Program-made: the position numbers and the translations under genes
Shown here: one piece after another, positions 29,571 through 46,081 of the stretch
Position numbering within the stretch: position 1 is the stretch's first letter
Layout of the letters: each line of letters begins with the position of its first letter
The notes under the pieces: model-generated
The model's input: the letters and a program-made list of their open reading frames with translations, nothing else
Database searches by the model: none
Told to the model about the DNA's origin: nothing
Assembly: GCF_040218225.1 (NCBI RefSeq)
Contig: NZ_JAVJQO010000008.1
Span: forward strand, 744,001-808,000
Origin: Gracilimonas sp.
Lineage (GTDB): Bacteria > Bacteroidota > Rhodothermia > Balneolales > Balneolaceae
Reading direction: 5' to 3'
Length of the DNA: 64,000 bases

Positions 29571-30965
29571 ATGTTAACTGAAGAATTACCAAACACAAAG
29601 ATTAAGGACCTCAAAAAGCCGGTTCCTGTAAATCAGGAAAGTCCGTTTTCGTTTGAGGAACTATTCATTTCTGTTACCGATTCCAAGTCCAATATTACTT
29701 ATGCAAATGATGTATTTGTTCGTATTAGTAAATATGACCACGAGGAGGTAATTGGCCAGCTTCATAAGTTAGTTCGGCATCCCGATATGCCACGAGCCGT
29801 TTTCAATATTTTTTGGGATTACCTTAACTCAGACAAGCCCGTAGCTGCTTATGTGAAAAACCTGGCAAAAGATGGGTCTTATTACTGGGTAATGGCTCTG
29901 GCTTTTCCTTGCAATGGAGGGTATCTGTCAATCAGATTAAAACCAGGAAGTGATCTTTTTAAGACGATCAAAGGGTTATATGCTAAAACGCTCCAATTTG
30001 AAAAACAGAAAGAGCAGCAATTGGATAACAAAAAACAAGCACTTGAGGAATCTCAGTCCTACTTGTTGAATCTCCTTAAAGCCGAAGGTTTTGCAGACTA
30101 CGAAGAGTTTATGTGGAATGCCCTTCAAAAAGAAATGGCCCATCGAGAAAATAACCTCAGCACAACCATTTTGGCGGAGAAGAAAAATACGGACAAGAAT
30201 ATTGTGCCTCCCGTTTTGGTAAAGGCTGAAAGCATTCTAAGCGAATTGGTTTTGGAGTTAAAGAACCTGAAAAAAATTCATGGTGCCTTGATTGGACATT
30301 CCGATTACATCCTTAAGCTGGCACGTTCTATTCTTCTGCTTTCATTAAATGCCCAAATAGGTTCTTCAAAGCTTGACCAGGAAGATATGTCTCTTTCTGT
30401 GGTAGCTGAGAAGATGGGTGAGCAATCCGTTGATGGTGAAAAAAGGCTGATTAACATGAAAGAGAACATTCATCATTTAAGCGAACTGATTGCGGAACTT
30501 AATTTTAATATTATCTCGGCCAAGCTTCAGGTTGAAATGACCATCGAGTTTCTGAAAGAGCTGGAGCATAAAAAGTTTAATGATGACATTTCCTTAATCG
30601 AGTCTGACAAAGTTATCACCCTCTTGTATGATGCCTTTATGCCACGGTTAGGTCTAATTGCCAGTGGAATTGGAAAAGTTCCTGCTTACCTCCGGGATCT
30701 CATGAATGGAGTAAAAGATATTGAGCGATTCTTGTTGGTATTGCGATTTATCCACATCACAGGAAAGGTAGAAATTGCACGAATGAATGATAATGCAAAA
30801 TCATTTTCTACAACTTTTCAGGATCTTGTACACGAAATCGAAACTGCTGATTCACATCTTCGGGAACTTAATGAAGTTGTAAACGATAACAAGAAAAGCG
30901 GACTAATTTATACGGTTTATAAAGAGCGTTTGACAAATTTAATTGCAAACATTGACCGCAGATAA
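29571..30965 (+). CDS. Aer-like PAS protein with degenerate receptor helices
   Basis: 464 residues, no membrane segment. The PAS domain (about 25-130) is of the Aer aerotaxis type: ITYANDVFVRISKYDHEEVI, HKLVRHPDMPRAVF, KDGSYYWVMALAFP. A long helical part follows. Its segment ILLLSLNAQIGSSKLDQEDM, then SVVAEKMGEQS, aligns with the chemoreceptor signalling tip ([15 protein letters not shown]...[12 protein letters not shown]) but the tip is largely rewritten. This looks like a receptor that keeps the PAS sensor and has lost standard CheA/CheW contacts. It has a sigma-28 promoter and a terminator of its own. Confidence 0.75.
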   Translation: MLTEELPNTKIKDLKKPVPVNQESPFSFEELFISVTDSKSNITYANDVFVRISKYDHEEVIGQLHKLVRHPDMPRAVFNIFWDYLNSDKPVAAYVKNLAKDGSYYWVMALAFPCNGGYLSIRLKPGSDLFKTIKGLYAKTLQFEKQKEQQLDNKKQALEESQSYLLNLLKAEGFADYEEFMWNALQKEMAHRENNLSTTILAEKKNTDKNIVPPVLVKAESILSELVLELKNLKKIHGALIGHSDYILKLARSILLLSLNAQIGSSKLDQEDMSLSVVAEKMGEQSVDGEKRLINMKENIHHLSELIAELNFNIISAKLQVEMTIEFLKELEHKKFNDDISLIESDKVITLLYDAFMPRLGLIASGIGKVPAYLRDLMNGVKDIERFLLVLRFIHITGKVEIARMNDNAKSFSTTFQDLVHEIETADSHLRELNEVVNDNKKSGLIYTVYKERLTNLIANIDRR

Positions 30966-33426: not shown

Positions 33427-35178
33427 TTAGAAATCACTGAAGTCATCATCCTCAAAAGGAATCAGCTCATGTGCTTCTACTCTTTTGGATGCACCATTAC
33501 CATTGGCGTGTGCTTTTGCATGGCTTCCATTATGACCGTTTCCATTGTGGTGGTGTTGGCCTTTCCCGTTACTATGTCCGTTGTGGCCATTTCCATTTAC
33601 ATAACCATTTTTAATAGCTGGCTGATGCTCGTATCGCTGGATGAAAGTTCCATTTCCGATACTTGCAGTACTACCACCTCCAACAAGACCGACCAACTCT
33701 CCGATAATGTTATTGAGTTCACTGGCTTGAGAAGAAAGCTCCTCTGCAGCACTGGCTGATTCTTCAGATGAAGAAGCATTTTCCTGAACAACATTATCCA
33801 TTTCAGACATAACGGAAGTCATTTGTTCAATACCTACTGCCTGTTCTTTGGAAGCTGCCGAAATTTCTACAACAAGCGTACTTACACTTGCAATACTTTG
33901 CTCGATAGCCTTCAGGTTTTCAGACACTTCTTCCGCTACGCTTGAACCTCTGTCAGAACTCGCTTGTGATTTCTGAATAAGTTCTGATGTATTTTGCGCT
34001 GCTTCAGCACTACGCTGAGCCAGGTTTCGCACTTCCTCAGCTACTACGGCAAATCCCTTTCCAGCTTCTCCGGCACGGGCTGCTTCTACCGCTGCATTTA
34101 AAGCCAACAGGTTAGTTTGGAAAGCAATATCATCAATGGTGTTTATAATCTTGGATGTTTCCTGAGCAGAGTTTTTAATCTCATTCATTGCCTGAATCAT
34201 TCGCTGCATAGCTTTAACACCATTTTCCACCAGTGGCTTCGATTCATTCATCGCCAGTTCAGCCTGACTTGAATTATCATCCGTTTGCTTAATCTGGGAA
34301 GACATCTCTTCGAGTGAAGAAGTAGTCTCCTGGAGACTAGCGGCCTGTTCGCTGGCACTTTCAGCCAATTGCTGACTTGCACTTGAAAGCTGTTCAGAAG
34401 AAGCGCTAACCTGATCCGAACCGCTCTTCAGCCTTTCAATAATACTCTGAAGTGTGGCATTGATAGATCTCCCAACAAAGAATCCGAATGCTAAAGCACC
34501 TAAAACCGATAACACGGCAACTACGCTTATGATCCATACGTAGTTACTTACAATAGCTTGTGTATCATCAGCCAGTAACCTTGCTCCATCTTCTGCAGCC
34601 TGATTAATAGCAACCGAACGATCCAGTAGTTCCTGATAATTTACAGCAGCGTTTCTCTCTGCTTCAAATAAGGTATTACTTACCTTTGTAAGCTCAGAAG
34701 GATCCGTGTTATTCTCTAACGCTAAAGTTGCATCAAGGTACGCTTGAAGATTACTTTCGTAATTTTCAATTACCTCTTTAAGCCCATCCATTTTTTCTTC
34801 CAGAACCGGCAGATCATATGCTTCTACATAACCTTCAAATTCTCCATATTCACCATAGATTTTTTCAAACCTGGAAAGTGCATTTTCCATATAAGAAACA
34901 TCATTGGTATTTGTAAACTGCAGATGCTCGTAGCCTGCTTTCCGAACAGCTGTTTCAAAGGCTGCAGCTGTTCCCCATTCATTGAAAGAGATCTCGGACA
35001 GAGATGTTGTATTGTCCTGAATTCTATTCAGAGAAAACAGTGCTATGGCGCCAAGAATCAGGGTTACTACAGCAGCGGATCCGGTTAAAAAGGATATCCT
35101 TTTCCCTATCGTCCAACTACTTTCTCCGGCATTCCCTCCTTGCGTAATGTTGTTTATGTATTTATTAATCGATGACAT
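33427..35178 (-). CDS. Methyl-accepting chemotaxis protein (MCP 1)
   Basis: 583 residues: N-terminal membrane helix (30-50), periplasmic four-helix sensor region, second helix (about 210-232), HAMP-like linker and a signalling domain with the tip [20 protein letters not shown]. After about residue 510 a long flexible tail rich in Asn, Gly and His ([20 protein letters not shown]) ends in DDDFSDF. Ribosome site GAGG precedes the ATG. It follows cheW by 30 bp and is probably transcribed with it from 35816-35842. Confidence 0.95.
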
Positions 35179-35208
35179 TTTTACCTCATTTTTACTGTTT
35201 GAATTTAT

Positions 35209-35724
35209 CTATTTAGCTGCAGGCTCGTTTGCGTCCAAAACTTCTTCAGGCACATCAAATAGCACTTTATGGATATCAACGATCATTTTTACAGACTCTT
35301 TAACTTTACCAATACCAGCCAGGTATTCGCTGTTTCCTTTCACACCGAATGATGGTACTTCTTCAATTTGATTGTCTTTGATGTCGGCCACCTCAGATAC
35401 CTTATCGACCAGTACACCCATCAGGTAATCATCTTCCTGAACTACAATTACGCAGGTCTCATCAGTGTCTTCAACCGCAGGCAATTCAAAGCGCAGGCGC
35501 AGGTTCATAACCGGCACAATTTTACCACGCAGGTTTAATACTCCGCGAATATACTTTGGCATTTTGGGAACAGGGGTGATAGGCATCAGGCCAATAATTT
35601 CCTGTACTTTCAAGATCTCAATTGCGTATTCCTCTTTCCCTAAAAAGAAGCTGAGAAATTTTCCGCCAGCTATCAGGTGGCCGTTTTCTACGGCCTCTTT
35701 TTCTTTAACCAGTGTTTCTTCCAT
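35209..35724 (-). CDS. cheW: CheW, chemotaxis coupling protein
   Basis: 171 residues from the ATG at 35724. The CheW fold is clear: FFLGKEEYAIEILKVQEIIG, YIRGVLNLRGKIVPVMNLRL and VDKVSEVADI. The open frame extends to 35826, but a sigma-28 -10 box (35816-35823) covers that start, so it cannot lie within the message. Residues before MEETLVKEKEA are also atypical. CheW links receptors to CheA. Cotranscribed with MCP 1. Confidence 0.93.
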   Translation of the reverse strand: MEETLVKEKEAVENGHLIAGGKFLSFFLGKEEYAIEILKVQEIIGLMPITPVPKMPKYIRGVLNLRGKIVPVMNLRLRFELPAVEDTDETCVIVVQEDDYLMGVLVDKVSEVADIKDNQIEEVPSFGVKGNSEYLAGIGKVKESVKMIVDIHKVLFDVPEEVLDANEPAAK

Positions 35725-35815
35725 GTTGTTAGTGTTTTGCTTCTTTCCGGCTTTGCAGGATTCATTAGCTGAGTTCCTCTCACCAAAAAGCATAATTAGT
35801 GGTTTGTTAATGGGT

Positions 35816-35842
35816 TTATCGGACACGGTGAGATTTTCTTAA
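35816..35842 (-). promoter_or_regulatory. Sigma-28 promoter of cheW
   Basis: TTAA (35842-35839), 15 bp, TCCGATAA (35823-35816) on the minus strand. It overlaps the longest cheW frame and fixes a downstream start. The 303-bp gap beyond it (35827-36129) holds this site, the inverted repeat at 35881-35980 and the terminator at 36055. Confidence 0.7.
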
Positions 35843-35880
35843 ATGATTTTAATGTCCGGGACCAACTATTTTTGAAGGGA

Positions 35881-35980
35881 GCAACCTTGCAGCGTCCGCA
35901 GGTCCTTCAAGCGTTGAGGGGGAACCGATCCTTATTACATTGCGAACGCTCCAAGGTCTTATGAGACGCTTGGAGGTTCT
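35881..35980. repeat. Large imperfect inverted repeat
   Basis: Two 36-bp copies face each other around a 28-bp spacer (35881-35916 and 35945-35980). Reading both in the same direction gives AACGCTTGAAGGACCTGCGG and AACGCTCCAAGGTCTTATGA, then ACGCTGCAAGGTT and ACGCTTGGAGGTT. Each copy is itself partly palindromic. No protein. A REP-like element type is likely. Confidence 0.65.
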
Positions 35981-36054
35981 TCTATTCACACGCTAATTTA
36001 ATAATAGATCGGAGTAGAGGTAGTTTTCCATCCGGGAAGAGGTAATTCAAGTCC

Positions 36055-36086
36055 AAAAAAAGCATTACCCTGGTCAGGGTAATGCT
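36055..36086 (-). terminator. Terminator of the TonB-domain gene
   Basis: AGCATTACCCTG, loop AC, CAGGGTAATGCT and a T6 tract on the minus strand: a 12-bp perfect stem, about 44 bp after the gene's stop. Also a short T run on the plus strand. Confidence 0.85.
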
Positions 36087-36129
36087 TTTAGTCAATTATT
36101 GGGGATGTTATGTCTTAGTCAAAAGTTCT

Positions 36130-36561
36130 TTAGCTTTCAATCTTGAAGCTTATCGGCAAAGTGTAATAAACCTTTACAGCTTTCCCCTGAAGTTGACCAG
36201 GAGTAAACTTCACTTTTTTAATACCTTCTAATGCTGCATCACCGCATCCGGCTCCAATATCTTTAATAACCTCCGCATCTTTAACATCTCCATTTTCATC
36301 AACCACAAATTTAACGAAAACGCGTCCTTCAACACGACCGGAAATTGCCGCTCTCGGGTAATCAATATTCTTGTAAACCTCTTTAATTCCACCCTTGATC
36401 TTGGGCATCTGGTCTACCACATCATAAATTTTTGTCGAGTCTTCAGCAGTAATTGCAAAAACCCCCTCTGCTAATAATCCGGATGATGCTTTAGCAGGTA
36501 GAGTCGTTATCGCCAAAAAGGCTGCCATAAAAGAAAAAAGTAGTATTGATTTTTTAACCAT
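36130..36561 (-). CDS. Secreted/periplasmic TonB C-terminal-domain protein
   Basis: 143 residues: signal peptide (1-25; SFMAAFLAITTLPAKA), then a short linker and a TonB C-terminal domain (IDYPRAAISGRVEGRVFVKF, VVDENGDVKDAEVIKDIGAG, YYTLPISFKIE). No membrane anchor beyond the signal and no Pro-rich spacer, so it is not a standard TonB. It has its own sigma-28 promoter (36629-36655) and terminator. Role unknown; periplasmic protein interaction is likely. Confidence 0.8.
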   Translation of the reverse strand: MVKKSILLFSFMAAFLAITTLPAKASSGLLAEGVFAITAEDSTKIYDVVDQMPKIKGGIKEVYKNIDYPRAAISGRVEGRVFVKFVVDENGDVKDAEVIKDIGAGCGDAALEGIKKVKFTPGQLQGKAVKVYYTLPISFKIES

Positions 36562-36628
36562 GAAAATTACCTCAATTTTTTAGTCTTTTTGTAGAAACAG
36601 ATTTCAGGTATTAGCATTTATAAACCCT

Positions 36629-36655
36629 TTATCGGCGTACTAACTTTTTTCTTAA
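36629..36655 (-). promoter_or_regulatory. Sigma-28 promoter of the TonB-domain gene
   Basis: TTAA, 15 bp, GCCGATAA (36636-36629), a full match to the general sigma-28 -10 consensus, 67 bp before the ATG at 36561. Confidence 0.75.
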
Positions 36656-36732
36656 GCCTATTTCTAATTTTTTTAATAAGCGGCTATTCTATTTCATCTC
36701 TAATAAAAACAAGGATCAAAAAATCATTTAAC

Positions 36733-36765
36733 CAAAAAAGCAGTGAGAGTATCCTTCCCACTGCT
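36733..36765 (-). terminator. Terminator of chemoreceptor 2
   Basis: AGCAGTG, 13-nt loop, CACTGCT, then TTTTTT on the minus strand, starting 22 bp after the stop of the receptor gene. Confidence 0.75.
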
Positions 36766-36786
36766 CTTATAATTATTTAGTCATCG

Positions 36787-38502
36787 TTAAAAGTCACTGA
36801 AGTCATCATGATCGAAACCATTTAGCACGGGTTCTTTGTGATACCCGTTTTTTACTAAACCTGGTTTTGGTTTTTCACCATGTTGATCTGAACCATTTAG
36901 TCCATATCCGTTAACAGGTTTAGGACTTTTTGGTTTTTGCCCTAACGGAATGTTGCTGGTAAAGCGTTGAAGGATGCTTTCCTGCGTCTGTACTATTTGG
37001 CCTCCGCTTCCCCCTACCATTTCCATCAGTTCACTTACGATAAACTTGAGCTCCGACGCCTGGGAAGAAAGTTCTTCCGCTGCACTGGCTGATTCTTCAG
37101 ATGAAGAAGCATTGCTCTGAACCACATTATCCATTTCGGTCATAACAGAGCTCATCTGCTGGATGCCTACTGCCTGCTCTTTAGAAGCGGCAGAGATCTC
37201 CACAATCAGCGTGCTCACATTGTTGATGCTTTCCTCTATTCTCTGAAGGTTTTCAGATACTTCTTTTGAGACCCCATTACCCCGGTCAGAACTAGACTGA
37301 GAACGCTGGATTAACTCTGACGTATTTTGAGCTGCTTCAGCACTGCGCTGGGCCAGTTTTCGAACCTCCTCTGCTACTACGGCAAATCCCTTTCCAGCTT
37401 CTCCGGCACGGGCTGCTTCAACAGCCGCATTCAGTGCCAGTAAGTTAGTTTGGAAGGCAATGTCATCGATCGTTTTGATAATCTTGGACGTCTCTTTTGA
37501 AGAATCACTGATCTCTTTCATGGCCTGAGTCATACGTTTCATCGCCTCTACACCATTTTCAACCAGTGGCTTTGACTCTTTCATCGCCACTTCTACTTCG
37601 GCTGAGTTTTCAGCATTTAGTTTTATCTGTGAAGACATTTCTTCCAGAGAAGAAGTGGTTTCCTGAACACTTGCTGCCTGCTCACTTGCACTTTCTGCCA
37701 ATTCCTGGCTGGCACCGGAAAGTTGTACCGAAGAAGCATTTACTTGCTCTGAACCACTGCTCAGTCGCTCAATAATAGATCTGAGCGCATTGTTTACAGA
37801 ACGAGTGATAAAGAAGCCCAATAACCCAGCTAAAGCTACTCCGAAGATTAAACCTGTTATAGTTACCGTACCTATTACATTATTTTGTGCAATTGCAGTT
37901 TTAACCTCGGAGTCTGCAATTACTTTATTGAGATCTACCAATCCCTGTAATTGTTCTTTGGCTACACGGTAAGATTCCATGTTATAGTTCATAAACTGAT
38001 CCCTTAATCGAGACAAGATATTTGCAGCTTTTTCAGAATCATTTGAAATCTGAAGATACTCACTCGAAATTTCCATGAATTTATTCTGATGATTTCCCCA
38101 GGTTTGATAAGAAGTACTAAATGCTTTCCAATTAATCGCTTCCTGCTGTGTTTGTGGCAAAGATTCATATATATCTTTCGCATCTCTTAGCTGTTTCCAA
38201 TATCCATTTACACTTTCAATAGCTTCCCTTCGGTTTTTATCAGATAGCGCTACATTCTGTAAGGCTTCTTCCTTGCTTCTGATCTCAGCCATAGCCAGAT
38301 TCATGTCCTGTAGTGCTTGAATACTTGGAAGTCTTGCTTCTCCAATTACCTCAATCACTTTTTTATTGGTCAGGGCTCCATATTCACCTATCCCCCCAAG
38401 TATCAGGGTTATGAGAGTTATTCCAGTAAAAGCTGCCGTTAGCTTCTTCCCTATCGTCCATTTTTCTTTTCCATTATTTGGAATATGATTCGCTGTTTTC
38501 AT
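36787..38502 (-). CDS. Methyl-accepting chemotaxis protein (MCP 2)
   Basis: 571 residues from the ATG at 38502 ([20 protein letters not shown]), which matches the layout of its paralogues; the frame continues to 38661 without MCP features. Two membrane helices, a periplasmic helical sensor, HAMP-like linker and the signalling tip [20 protein letters not shown]. The tail is rich in Asn, Gly, Lys and Pro and ends DHDDFSDF. The leader from its sigma-28 promoter would be about 180 nt and contains an 11-bp hairpin. Confidence 0.94.
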
Positions 38503-38628
38503 AATCTTAAATTTTAATGTTGTCTCGACGTAGATTTTTTTGGTGTTCTGTATTTTGTTAGCTCGACACTCAATCTTTGATCGCTGACAATTTTGGTTTA
38601 ATGTAATCCCAGGCAAACCTAATATTGA

Positions 38629-38654
38629 ATAATCTAATAGTCTTATTAGATTAT
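38629..38654 (-). promoter_or_regulatory. Hairpin in the leader of chemoreceptor 2
   Basis: ATAATCTAATA, loop 4 nt, TATTAGATTAT: perfect 11-bp inverted repeat, AT-rich, about 130 nt before the start codon. A protein-binding palindrome or an mRNA hairpin are both possible. Confidence 0.55.
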
Positions 38655-38659
38655 AGACC

Positions 38660-38692
38660 AAAAAAATAACCTGCTCGGGCAGAACAGGTTAT
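38660..38692 (-). terminator. Terminator of chemoreceptor 3, overlapping a promoter
   Basis: Minus strand: ATAACCTG, loop 11 nt, CAGGTTAT, then TTTTTT. It lies 105 bp after the stop of the MCP 3 gene. Its first arm shares TAA with the -10 box of the next promoter (38689-38715). Confidence 0.75.
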
Positions 38693-38715
38693 CGGTAGAA
38701 AGAAAAAAATATTAA
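38689..38715 (-). promoter_or_regulatory. Sigma-28 promoter of chemoreceptor 2
   Basis: TTAA (38715-38712), 15 bp, ACCGATAA (38696-38689). Transcription would start near 38682, inside the terminator stem of the preceding gene, so the new message carries only part of that hairpin. Confidence 0.7.
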
Positions 38716-38796
38716 ATACTTTTGTCACTAAAATTTAATAAAAACAATTACTTATACTTCATTAAATCTTCATATTTTGAGTTTAAGGGTATCGTA

Positions 38797-40521
38797 TTAG
38801 AATCCATTCAGGTCTTTATCAGAAAAGTGAAAGCCATTGGTGATTGATCCCTTTTTATACCCATGCTTTTTATGGTTTGCATTCTGCTTTAGTGCATGAG
38901 CTTTCCCATTAGTATTTCCTATTGGTTTCTTATTTGGATACGCAACAGGAGCAAGTCCGCTTAGCTGGTTTTTTCTAATTTCAACAGAAGTAGTGTTATT
39001 CTCGTCACTTCCCACCATTACCTTCAGATCCCGAATAATATACTTCAATTCCTCGGCCTGGGATGAAAGCTCCTCTGCTGCGCTGGCCGATTCTTCCGAT
39101 GTTGAGGCATTTTCCTGAACAACATGATCCATTTCTGTCATAGCTGTTTGTATTTGCTGAATTCCAACCGATTGTTCTTTAGAGGCAGCTGAAATTTCCA
39201 CAACAAGGGTACTCACACTATTGATACTATCTTCAATCTTTTTCAAGTTTTCTGATACTTCAGACGATACGTTGTTTCCACGATCTGAACTTGCCTGTGA
39301 GCGCTGTATAAGCTCGGAGGTATTCTTAGCTGCTTCTGCACTTCGTTGCGCTAAAGTTCTTACTTCTTCAGCTACCACAGCAAATCCTTTGCCTGCTTCA
39401 CCAGCCCGGGCTGCCTCTACGGCTGCATTCAATGCCAGCAGGTTGGTCTGGAAAGCAATATCATCAATCGTTTTGATAATTTTGGAGGTTTCTTTGGATG
39501 ATTCACTGATTTCTTTCATAGCCTGAGTCATGCGTTTCATCGCTTCCACACCATCATTCACCAATGGCTTGGAATCTTCCATTGCACGTTCAGCCTCTGC
39601 GGAGTTTTCAGCATTCATTTTGGTTTGGCTGGACATTTCTTCCAGAGAAGACGTGGTTTCCTGAACACTGGCTGCCTGTTCACTGGTGCTTTGCGCCAGT
39701 TGCTGGCTAGAATCAGAGAACTGCTCAGCCGCCCCTGATAAGTTTTGTGCATTATTACCCAGCTGTTCTATAATTCGTTGGATGGGTTTCATCACATTAA
39801 AGCGAACTACCCAGAATGAAATCACAGCTAATACTGCAATGGCGGGTACTGCGAAAAGGCTTAGCATAAAGAGAAAATCTCTTCGGGCAATTACAGCTTC
39901 TACTTCTTCCTTTGTCCGGCTTTCCAGCATTTTTTCAAACTCGGCAATCGGTTTCATAATAGTAGCCTTATCAGAATGGTACTTATCATCGAACATGATT
40001 CGGCTGGCGAGTTCGAGGTTTGGCTCGCCTTTTCTGGTATAACTACCCCTTCCGTCATCAAACAGCCCTTTTACTGCATTCATTGCTATTGTTTCGGTGG
40101 TGACCAATCCATTAGACTTTTTCTCTGCTTCATCAAGCTTGGCAAACTCAGCTTTTGTAAAACCCGCCTCCTTCATCAAGTCTTTCAGGGCTATTGTACG
40201 TCCATCAGGTCTTGGTTTATTTCCATTCCTCACATCAAGTATATGCCAGTACTCATCCTCATATTTTGGATTTTGCGTTAGCACATAGGTTCTGGCCAAA
40301 CGAGTCAACTCGTCAGAACTGAAGGTCAGCTCTGCAGCAAGCTGGCTCGAAATGTATCGCTTGTCGTTTACTTCCTTAAGTTCGCTTTGCACATTGTATG
40401 TTACAATGGATAGCACTGATATAATGATTGCCACAATCAGGTAGGCAACGTTGATAGTGGTTAGTTTTTTACCAACGGTCCAGTTTTTATTATTGAGAAT
40501 GGTATTGTTAATGTCACTCAT
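38797..40521 (-). CDS. Methyl-accepting chemotaxis protein (MCP 3)
   Basis: 574 residues. Membrane helix at 20-43, periplasmic sensor region with a helical-bundle look ([20 protein letters not shown]), second helix (about 215-235), and the tip [21 protein letters not shown]-terminal tail rich in Asn/Lys/His ending DKDLNGF. It has its own sigma-28 promoter about 200 nt upstream (40721-40747). Confidence 0.94.
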
Positions 40522-41217: not shown

Positions 41218-42291
41218 TTACGCTATAAGTTCTAATTTCTTTGTTTCTAAATGCTTCAGGATTGCTTCAGATATTCCTTCAAGCGGCAAGACTTCTGAAG
41301 CCGCACCAATTTTCGCAGCTTCCTTTGGCATGCCGTATACCACGGAACTACTCTCATCCTGCGCAATGGTATAACAACCTTTTGCTTTCATCTGAAGAAG
41401 TCCTTTTGCTCCATCAGCTCCCATTCCAGTAAGTATTATACCTATTGCCTTATTTCCAGCCACTCTCGCAACTGAATCAAACAACACATCCACACTTGGA
41501 CGATGGTGATTAACCCTGCCGGAATCTATGATCTTAATCTCAAAACCATCTGTCGAGTCTTCGATGATCATATGTCTATCGCCAGGCGCAATAAACACTT
41601 TCCCGGAATGCACCTTGTCTCCATCTTTGGCCTCAACAACTTCAACCCTGCACAAAGTATTTAAACGGCTTGCAAACTGGTTAGTGAAAACAGGGGGCAT
41701 ATGTTGTACTATAACTACACCCGGTATATTCTCTGGTAATTGCTGCAACAGATATTCAAGGGTACGAGGACCTCCGGTAGATACTCCTATGGCAATCAAC
41801 TTTTCTTTTGAATTTCCAATCACTTCTCTTACATGCAATTCTCCTCTGGCGGCACTGCCAACCGGACTATTTAAAATACCCCGGATATTTTGAGATTTAA
41901 CATTAGCCACAGAGGCTGTCTGTATGGCCCTAACTAAATCGTATTCCATTTCTTCGACGCCATAATCGGCTTTTGGTTTTGAAATGACTTCAATGGCGCC
42001 CGCTGCCAGGGCACGAAGAGCTCTTTTACTATTTGCCGGGGTAACGGAGCTTACTACAACCACAGGCAAGGGAAGGTGTTTCATTAGTTTCTTCAGGAAG
42101 GTCAGGCCGTCCATACGAGGCATTAACATATCAAGGGTAATGACATCTGGCTGGAGCTCGGCAATAAGCTGACGAGCTTCATAGGGGTCTTCGGCTGTTC
42201 CCACAACTTCAATACCTTCCTGTTTATTCAATAAAAAAGAAATCAGTTTTCTATCGAATAGAGAATCGTCAACTACAAGGACTTTAATCAT
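41218..42291 (-). CDS. cheB: CheB, receptor methylesterase (copy 1)
   Basis: 357 residues: an N-terminal receiver (VDDSLFDRKLISFL; DMLMPRMDG) and the C-terminal methylesterase with catalytic Ser in GVSTGG, His in VQHMPP and Asp in LTGMGADGAKG. It removes methyl groups from receptor Glu residues. A paralogue lies just upstream. Confidence 0.95.
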   Translation of the reverse strand: MIKVLVVDDSLFDRKLISFLLNKQEGIEVVGTAEDPYEARQLIAELQPDVITLDMLMPRMDGLTFLKKLMKHLPLPVVVVSSVTPANSKRALRALAAGAIEVISKPKADYGVEEMEYDLVRAIQTASVANVKSQNIRGILNSPVGSAARGELHVREVIGNSKEKLIAIGVSTGGPRTLEYLLQQLPENIPGVVIVQHMPPVFTNQFASRLNTLCRVEVVEAKDGDKVHSGKVFIAPGDRHMIIEDSTDGFEIKIIDSGRVNHHRPSVDVLFDSVARVAGNKAIGIILTGMGADGAKGLLQMKAKGCYTIAQDESSSVVYGMPKEAAKIGAASEVLPLEGISEAILKHLETKKLELIA

Positions 42292-42312
42292 GCCTTACCT
42301 CCTTTTTCGGTA

Positions 42313-43380
42313 TTAAGAAACAGGTTCTGCCATTTTCTTAGCCATCTGCTTTATTATGGCATCAGGTATGGATTGTAAAGGTAAAATCTCTTCAGCTGCC
42401 CCCAGTTTTGCAGCCTCTCTAGGCATTCCATATACTACCGAGGTAGCCTCATCCTGGGCAATTGTATAAGCGCCTTTTTCCTTCATGTTTAGCAGTCCCT
42501 GGGCACCATCGGCTCCCATCCCGGTTAAGATCACGCCCATGGCATTCAAACCTGCGGCCTGTGCAACTGAATTAAACATCACATCCACACTTGGCCGCTG
42601 ATGATGAACCGGAGGGCCTGACTTAATTCGGGTGTAATATTTGGCTCCGCTTTTTTCAACAAGCATGTGGAAGTTTCCCGGTGCAATCAAAGCCTGACCG
42701 GATTTAATTAAATCTCCATCTTCAGCTTCTTTAACTTTAAGCCGGCAAATCGTATTCAGCCGTTCTGCAAAACTTTTGGTGAATACAGGTGGCATATGCT
42801 GAGTAATGACAATACCGGGCAGATTTTCAGGGAGCTCTGTAAGTACGGCTTCCAGTGCGCGGGTTCCTCCGGTAGAAGCACCAATTGCAATAAGTTTATT
42901 TGTGGTATGCAGCAGGCCTTCCGAATGCTTTAAGCCCGTCGTTTTCTGTTTGGCTTGAACCGATTTAATCATCTCCATATGTTTATCGAAACGAGCAATA
43001 GATGCGATTCGGACGGCCTTTACAATATCCTGAGAGATGTTCTGAGTAGAATAAGCTGAGCCGGGTTTGCAGATTACATCTACTGCTCCAAGACGAAGTG
43101 CATTAAGAGCATTAGCACTGTTCTTGGGTGTTAACGAACTAACCACGACAACTGGCATGGGAAAATGCTTCATCAGTTTTGCCAAAAATGAAAGACCCTC
43201 CATGCGAGGCATTTCAAGGTCTAATGTGAGCACATCGGGTTTGAGCTGTACAATTTTTTCTCTTGCTATGTAAGGATCCATAGCTGTTCCAACAACCTCT
43301 ATATCCTGCTGCTTATTTAATTCTTCGGTAAGCAGTTTTCTTACTACAGCTGAATCATCTACAATCAGAACTTTAATCAT
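42313..43380 (-). CDS. cheB: CheB, receptor methylesterase (copy 2)
   Basis: 355 residues with intact catalytic residues (GASTGG, TQHMPP, LTGMGADGAQG) and an intact receiver (DLEMPRMEG). It lies next to the other cheB, so the two probably arose by tandem duplication and have diverged. Overlaps the cheX-like gene by 4 bp. Confidence 0.95.
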   Translation of the reverse strand: MIKVLIVDDSAVVRKLLTEELNKQQDIEVVGTAMDPYIAREKIVQLKPDVLTLDLEMPRMEGLSFLAKLMKHFPMPVVVVSSLTPKNSANALNALRLGAVDVICKPGSAYSTQNISQDIVKAVRIASIARFDKHMEMIKSVQAKQKTTGLKHSEGLLHTTNKLIAIGASTGGTRALEAVLTELPENLPGIVITQHMPPVFTKSFAERLNTICRLKVKEAEDGDLIKSGQALIAPGNFHMLVEKSGAKYYTRIKSGPPVHHQRPSVDVMFNSVAQAAGLNAMGVILTGMGADGAQGLLNMKEKGAYTIAQDEATSVVYGMPREAAKLGAAEEILPLQSIPDAIIKQMAKKMAEPVS

Positions 43381-44701: not shown

Positions 44702-45241
44702 TTAAACTGTTACTTGTTGGTTATAAACTGAGCCTGCCGAAATGCCGGAAGGACGATTTGAACTATTAATAGCTTGTTTATTGATGGTTACAATTCCATC
44801 TCCAATCGATAGTGTCATGGTTCTGGAAATGCTTCCTCCTACATCTTGTTTGGAAATCATGAATCCATTCTTCCAAAGTAGTTTTCTCAGAACCGTGAAA
44901 TTGCGCTTGCCAATTTTGAAGTAATCGTCATCTTCATTCTTCTTCATACTGGCACCACCAGCCACTATTATTTCAAGGTTCTTTTTCTGAGCTCCCAGTT
45001 CATAAACCTCATTCAGGAGAGCCCCAAAGCCGGTATCTACATACATCGCTGGTTTTGTTTTGGCTTTTTCAGGATCAGCTTTTGATAACGGAAGCATCAC
45101 ATGTACCAACCCACCTACTTTAGCAACAGGGTCGTAAACGGTAATGCCAAGACAACTGCCGAGTGCATGAGTTATGATTTCTTCTTGCACATTGGCGGAT
45201 ACTTTTAAATCGCTAACACCAACTACTTTTCTCATTTGCAC
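44702..45241 (-). CDS. cheD: CheD, receptor deamidase
   Basis: 179 residues. CheD motif with catalytic Cys (ALGSCLGITVYD) and His in GGLVHVMLP; also FKIGKRNFTVL. CheD deamidates receptor Gln residues and partners with CheC/CheX-type proteins. Follows cheR by 6 bp. Confidence 0.93.
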   Translation of the reverse strand: MQMRKVVGVSDLKVSANVQEEIITHALGSCLGITVYDPVAKVGGLVHVMLPLSKADPEKAKTKPAMYVDTGFGALLNEVYELGAQKKNLEIIVAGGASMKKNEDDDYFKIGKRNFTVLRKLLWKNGFMISKQDVGGSISRTMTLSIGDGIVTINKQAINSSNRPSGISAGSVYNQQVTV

Positions 45242-45247
45242 ACTCTG

Positions 45248-46081
45248 TTATACTTTTTGATATACAGCAGGAGCCATGTTTTTGAATCCTTTATTGTTTG
45301 ATGAAACACTTTCGGAATGTCCCAGAAAAAGAAACCCTCCGGGTGCAAGCTGCTCATAAAACTTATTTACTACTTCCTGTTGGGTTTGTCTGTTGAAATA
45401 AATCATCACATTGCGACACATGATTACATGAAAATTACCCTTCAAAGGCCACCTTTCCATCAGATTCAATCTACCGTAGGTAATCATATTCTGCACATCG
45501 GCAGATACTTTAAATTGATCATTTTCAAGCCTATTGAAGTACTTCCGCTGTATAGATTCAGGAACTTCCATCATTCGGGAAGATGGGTAAACACCGTTTT
45601 TCGCAACATTCAAAACCTCTCTTGATATGTCTGTCGCTAAAATTTTTACTGACGACCACGGAGTCGTTTTCTGTGCTTCTTTCAGAGTTATGGCGCATGT
45701 GATGGGCTCTTCGCCCGTTGAACACCCGGCTGACCACCATTTAACACTTCGTCCACCCATCGTTGGGATGATGTGCTTTTTAATAAATTCAAAGTGCTGA
45801 ACTTCCCTGAAAAAATTCGTTTTATTGGTAGTCAGAACATCTACAAAAGAAAGAAATTCTCCACCTGACGCTGGTTGCTCTATAAAATCCAGGTACTCTG
45901 AAAAGCTCCCTATACCTAGCTTACGCATCCTTTTCATCAGCCGGCTTTGCACCAATGCCTCTTTTCCTTCCTGCAGAAAAATTCCACAGTAACTATAGAG
46001 AATGTCTTTAACACGCTGGAAATCATCCGGCCCTAATTTTGGAGATGAAATCGAAGGCGCTGTGTTCATGAAGGTATTCAT
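45248..46081 (-). CDS. cheR: CheR, receptor methyltransferase
   Basis: 277 residues. N-terminal helical part, then a SAM-binding domain with WSAGCSTGEEPITCAI and MCRNVMIYFNR. No extra TPR domain. It follows cheA by 14 bp. It may recognise the receptor tails ending F-x-x-F. Confidence 0.95.
   Translation of the reverse strand: MNTFMNTAPSISSPKLGPDDFQRVKDILYSYCGIFLQEGKEALVQSRLMKRMRKLGIGSFSEYLDFIEQPASGGEFLSFVDVLTTNKTNFFREVQHFEFIKKHIIPTMGGRSVKWWSAGCSTGEEPITCAITLKEAQKTTPWSSVKILATDISREVLNVAKNGVYPSSRMMEVPESIQRKYFNRLENDQFKVSADVQNMITYGRLNLMERWPLKGNFHVIMCRNVMIYFNRQTQQEVVNKFYEQLAPGGFLFLGHSESVSSNNKGFKNMAPAVYQKV

Follow-up and report, generated by a model that had tools for sequence, protein, structure and literature searches.

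A conserved C-terminal tip on Balneolales chemoreceptors as a probable tether for adaptation enzymes

All three MCP signalling domains of a 3.54-Mb Balneolaceae genome (genus Gracilimonas or a close one) lie within the window, by which we mean the whole 64-kb stretch of DNA analysed here, and each of the three receptors ends in a short tip on a long arm. Which protein would read this tip? The locus offers a small and clean system for the question, with three receptors, all tipped, one CheR and two CheBs. The tips here are conserved, yet the accepted sequence rule predicts the CheR found alongside them to be non-binding. Identifying the reader would decide between a second tether site on CheR and tips that serve CheB, and would also correct surveys that count only ends of the form xZxxZ (Z = F/W/Y). 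The cluster contains the three MCPs, a single CheR, CheA, CheD, two CheBs, two CheX-like proteins, several CheYs and CheW; the identities of CheA, CheY and CheW were assigned by eye from the translations. The receptors and their C-terminal parts are as follows.

33427..35178, minus strand: MCP of 583 aa (translation), with a signalling domain that is class-34H-like by resemblance
33430..33468, minus strand: C-terminal tip of MCP 33427-35178, bipartite (IPF + acidic + FxxF; translation; kept by relatives)
33469..33678, minus strand: N/G/H/K-rich flexible arm of MCP 33427-35178, about 70 residues (translation)
36787..38502, minus strand: MCP of 571 aa counted from the ATG, with a 4HB_MCP_1 sensor and an arm of about 65 residues
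36790..36813, minus strand: C-terminal tip DHDDFSDF of MCP 36787-38502 (translation; comparison with relatives)
38797..40521, minus strand: MCP of 574 aa, with an arm of about 63 residues
38800..38820, minus strand: C-terminal tip DKDLNGF of MCP 38797-40521, L-x-x-F without IPF (translation)

The translations of all three receptors confirm the F/L-x-x-F C-terminus that an earlier note on this DNA had described. In each receptor the coiled bundle ends in ..VGG or ..VGS and is followed by 63-70 residues of low complexity and then by the tip, which bears out the same note's reading of the long N/G/H/K-rich tails as flexible arms; a linker was defined as at least 10 residues past the signalling domain, and those of the three MCPs measure 63-70. 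The arms align poorly with one another, and the signalling domains of the three paralogues are near-identical. The strict xZxxZ pattern fits the receptors at 33427 and 36787, both of which end in DFSDF. The receptor at 38797, whose last residues are SDKDLNGF, has L at the first Z (DLNGF) and fits the relaxed pattern only; its tip resembles the FNGF tips of Fodinibius receptors. In a search of the genome for tips on non-MCP proteins, the tip DNA pattern, with one mismatch allowed, matched two MCP ends only. The sensor of MCP 33427-35178 gave a weak 4HB_MCP_1 match below the cut-off, and the domain search recognised no sensor domain in MCP 38797-40521. The mechanical ORF of MCP 36787-38502 begins at a TTG at 38661, upstream of the ATG. 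Pfam HAMP gave no match in any of the three MCPs (33427-40521), and only a short piece seems to separate the second membrane helix from the signalling helices.

We sorted 96 MCP ends from the order Balneolales into 47 with a window-like signalling domain and 49 others. A hydrophobic-x-x-F ending occurs in 39/47 window-class MCPs versus 7/49 of the other classes, the strict xZxxZ ending in 24/47 versus 2/49, and the upstream IP[FLM] in 30/47 versus 3/49; tipped receptors are found mainly in the MCP class closest to that of the window, the 34H assignment being made by resemblance. Not every receptor needs the tip, given its absence from eight of the 47 same-class receptors in relatives. Altered or absent tips of same-class MCPs include the ends PEEFFFN and NDFFMSKN (L036 of G003 and L009 of G004, respectively). 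Among ends of the order with a terminal F, position -4 is F in 23, L in 12 and V, I, A, Y and M in one end each, position -3 is mostly S and position -2 is mostly D. Most tips extend upstream to [VIL]IP[FL] and an acidic run, and position -4 may be L, I, V or M, residues not covered by the xZxxZ pattern used in surveys. Four orthologues of the 33427 receptor share the tip ending [DE]DDDFSDF, and pairwise comparison over 19 codons gave 3-10 synonymous and 0 non-synonymous differences. Because only synonymous differences separate these orthologues, the tip is under purifying selection, i.e. it is selected as protein.

Related tips are also present outside the Balneolales, in a set of CheR-bearing loci and genomes selected by CheR similarity rather than compiled as a census. 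A hydrophobic-x-x-F ending was found in 19/48 MCP ends of this set versus 26/1240 of the remaining ORFs at these loci; for [VIL][IVLM]P[FLM] with a terminal F after it, the counts were 12/48 versus 0/1240. The tips include EEVIPFDDDEFSDF and NEIIPLDDDDFKDF in Desulfobacteraceae, the former nearly identical to the window tip, KVIPLDDKDHDILQNF in Smithella, GLIPFDESDPAMFGEF in Acidobacteria, WVIPLDDDGPMRDF in Polyangium, DVIPFDDDTDIFAEF in Gemmatimonadaceae and EEIIPFDDYNDDDNAILNSF in KSB1, and related tips adjoin cheR in other phyla.

The tip is largely of a known kind. Class-34H receptors carry a C-terminal xF/YxxF/Y pentapeptide beside matching CheRs (Tran et al., 2008; PMC2577667), and the abundance of C-terminal pentapeptides in Balneolaeota was already reported from counts in 2020 (Ortega & Krell, 2020; PMC7390727). 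Like the class-34H EFEKF of Geobacter (PMC2577667), the window tips place a terminal acidic F-x-x-F on an MCP with cheR in the cluster, although the class-34H likeness of the window MCPs was judged by resemblance of the signalling domain and not by heptad count. Nevertheless, the window lineage differs from class 34H in that position -4 may also be L, I, V, M or Y, in its upstream IP[FL] half and long arm, and in a CheR without the residues that were used for predicting pentapeptide binding (PMC2577667). With the NWETF of Tar and Tsr from E. coli and Salmonella, the tips share their place at the very C-terminus, a flexible arm, a four-helix sensor, which is the type most often joined to pentapeptides, a hydrophobic or aromatic residue at position 2 and F at position 5. 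In contrast to NWETF, they have no Trp, their arms of 63-70 residues are about twice the roughly 35 residues of Tar and Tsr (PMC7390727), and they occur with a CheR whose β-loop is short and whose contact residues are missing. The GWEEF of P. aeruginosa McpB, which works with CheR2/CheB2, is likewise recognised at the C-terminus and determines which adaptation enzymes serve a receptor, but CheR2 has a long loop, whereas the window CheR matches the loop length of the non-binding CheR1. The additions to the known picture are the upstream [VIL]IP[FL] and acidic half in several phyla, the relaxed position -4 and the single short-loop CheR.

We propose that each receptor's long disordered arm would end in a short linear docking motif, either [VIL]IP[FL]-acidic-hydrophobic-x-x-F or its last half alone. 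Like NWETF in E. coli, the motif would keep the adaptation enzymes close to the methylation sites in the receptor cluster and could thereby affect adaptation. That the tip tethers adaptation enzymes in the manner described for 34H receptors is very probable. The tip would not be read by the CheR β-subdomain loop that reads NWETF; the main candidate readers are another face of CheR and, in phosphorylated CheB copy 2 (42313), the linker/helix 5. We put the probability of this reading, with arm and tip as a 34H-type docking tether for one of these two partners, at roughly two in three. It is supported by the presence of the tip on all three MCPs beside one CheR, by class-restricted retention and purifying selection, and by the published precedents (PMC2577667; PMC7390727), the four-helix sensors and the related tips beside cheR elsewhere. 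The possible partners in the window considered below are the following.

41218..42291, minus strand: CheB copy 1; its segment IQTASVANVKSQ is without the modelled Salmonella pentapeptide-site residues R128, R134, hydrophobic 135 and H138
42313..43380, minus strand: CheB copy 2; its helix-5/linker segment VRIASIARFDKH retains R128, R134, hydrophobic 135 and H138
44702..45241, minus strand: CheD (receptor deamidase), a possible alternative tip partner
45248..46081, minus strand: CheR, the sole copy in the genome, with a short β-loop

In Salmonella CheB, the pentapeptide site has been modelled with basic residues at 128, 132 and 134, a hydrophobic residue at 135 and a large residue at 138, and activated CheB uses the pentapeptide as a selective tether (PMC8609364). 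It is conceivable, if doubtful, that the tip recruits phosphorylated CheB copy 42313 only and that CheR is untethered; the window CheR is of the untethered type, and in the helix-5/linker alignment with Salmonella CheB (VRTAARARIAAH) copy 2 matches at 128, 134, 135 and 138, whereas copy 1 does not. However, position 132, basic in Salmonella, is I in copy 2, position 134 varies among relatives (R/K/S/N), and the CheB of P. atrosepticum binds no pentapeptide although receptors there have them (PMC7698151). The motif VR.AS.A[RKS]F is kept in the copy-2-type CheBs of many relatives, and a similar segment (VR.A..A[RK]-hydrophobic) is found in CheBs of many phyla. Because the segment is conserved generally in the CheB subfamily, these residues are not decisive for tip docking, and copy 2 is compatible with, not proof of, a docking site for the tip.

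Docking of another protein of the cluster (CheD, CheX, a CheY, CheW/CheA) or of a localisation factor is unlikely. CheD, the two CheX-like proteins and several CheYs are at hand in the cluster, and the chemoreceptor-tether literature consulted here does not describe the IP[FL] half, but neither did we find a precedent for such proteins docking at an FxxF tip.

For CheR, the known determinants of NWETF binding are a long β-loop and, in Salmonella, residues Q182, R187, G188, G190, G194 and R197 (PMC2577667; PMC3062574; PMC5907407). We took the loop rule from these three papers and the residue list from PMC2577667, and measured loop length as the interval from the YF anchor to the NL anchor, with lengths checked by hand. 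The interval of the window CheR is 23 residues, short of the 26 residues of Salmonella and equal to that of the pentapeptide-independent P. aeruginosa CheR1. At the Salmonella positions it has R for Q182, R for R187, L for G188, no Gly for G190 or G194 and K for R197, so that at most two of the six contact residues are kept. The AlphaFold model of CheR (mean pLDDT 85) has, at the position expected for the loop, two short strands connected by a turn of 3 residues. Owing to the short loop and the few contacts kept, NWETF-style CheR binding is not supported at the level of sequence. The earlier note had taken the tips for a variant of NWETF that tethers CheR; the likeness to a published C-terminal tether variant stands (PMC2577667; PMC7390727), but the tip as a handle for CheR 45248 does not, given a loop three residues shorter than that of Salmonella and the missing contacts.

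Strand addition, with the tip as the fourth strand of the CheR β-subdomain in the loop pocket defined in Salmonella, is accordingly quite improbable. Two of the three receptor tips fit xZxxZ and are acidic like the general pentapeptide consensus (PMC7390727), and the residues at 187 and 197 are basic, but their equivalents vary freely among relatives that carry the tip. The tip-associated CheRs of the Balneolales fall into a single clade (100/100), where 27/27 have intervals of 22-25, whereas 24/25 CheRs of the tree set outside this clade have intervals of at least 26, the remaining one having 25. Each of two Balneolales genomes outside the CheR clade, G034 and G041, combines a Salmonella-like loop of 26 residues (KG or RG, then VK.K) with a single tipped MCP, the ends being ...VIPMDDDFEDF and ...DDDDFEDFK; in the latter (L011) the terminal residue is not the final Phe. 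The non-Balneolales CheRs that adjoin tipped MCPs have intervals of at least 26, yet no glycines at the Salmonella positions. With intervals from 22 upwards across tipped lineages, the tip thus persists whatever the CheR loop. Within Balneolales, the comparison of tip type (IPF/IPL; F/L at -4) with CheR loop length comprises only two independent tree contrasts and has no power. CheR docking in the preferred reading, by another face, rests on analogy, since this CheR is without the known determinants, and CheR is perhaps not the reader, since the CheRs found with this tip have various loop lengths.

That the tips are without function, resembling one another by chance or through recent duplication of receptors that are paralogues with near-identical signalling domains, is barely credible and was ruled out, because the tip shows synonymous but no amino-acid change, is retained by class in relatives, far exceeds background ORF rates and is conserved across families and phyla.

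More tentatively, the bipartite motif of the tether reading may be an old 34H-like tether of several phyla that is read outside the NWETF pocket; if so, the loop-length rule for tethered and untethered CheR would fail for the 34H-like class.

Several further features of these loci were observed. In one relative, a CheR-like gene (G010:C5:3232-3830) is interrupted by an in-frame TAG. The tandem CheBs at 41218-43380 (minus strand) have a similar adjacent pair in the same-genus relatives G001 and G007. Near the chemotaxis genes, 29571-30965 (plus strand) encodes a 464-aa protein that has no MCP signalling match; apart from an Aer-like PAS domain, it is a long helical stretch. Between two of the receptor genes, 36130-36561 (minus strand) encodes a small protein that by eye resembles a TonB C-terminal domain.
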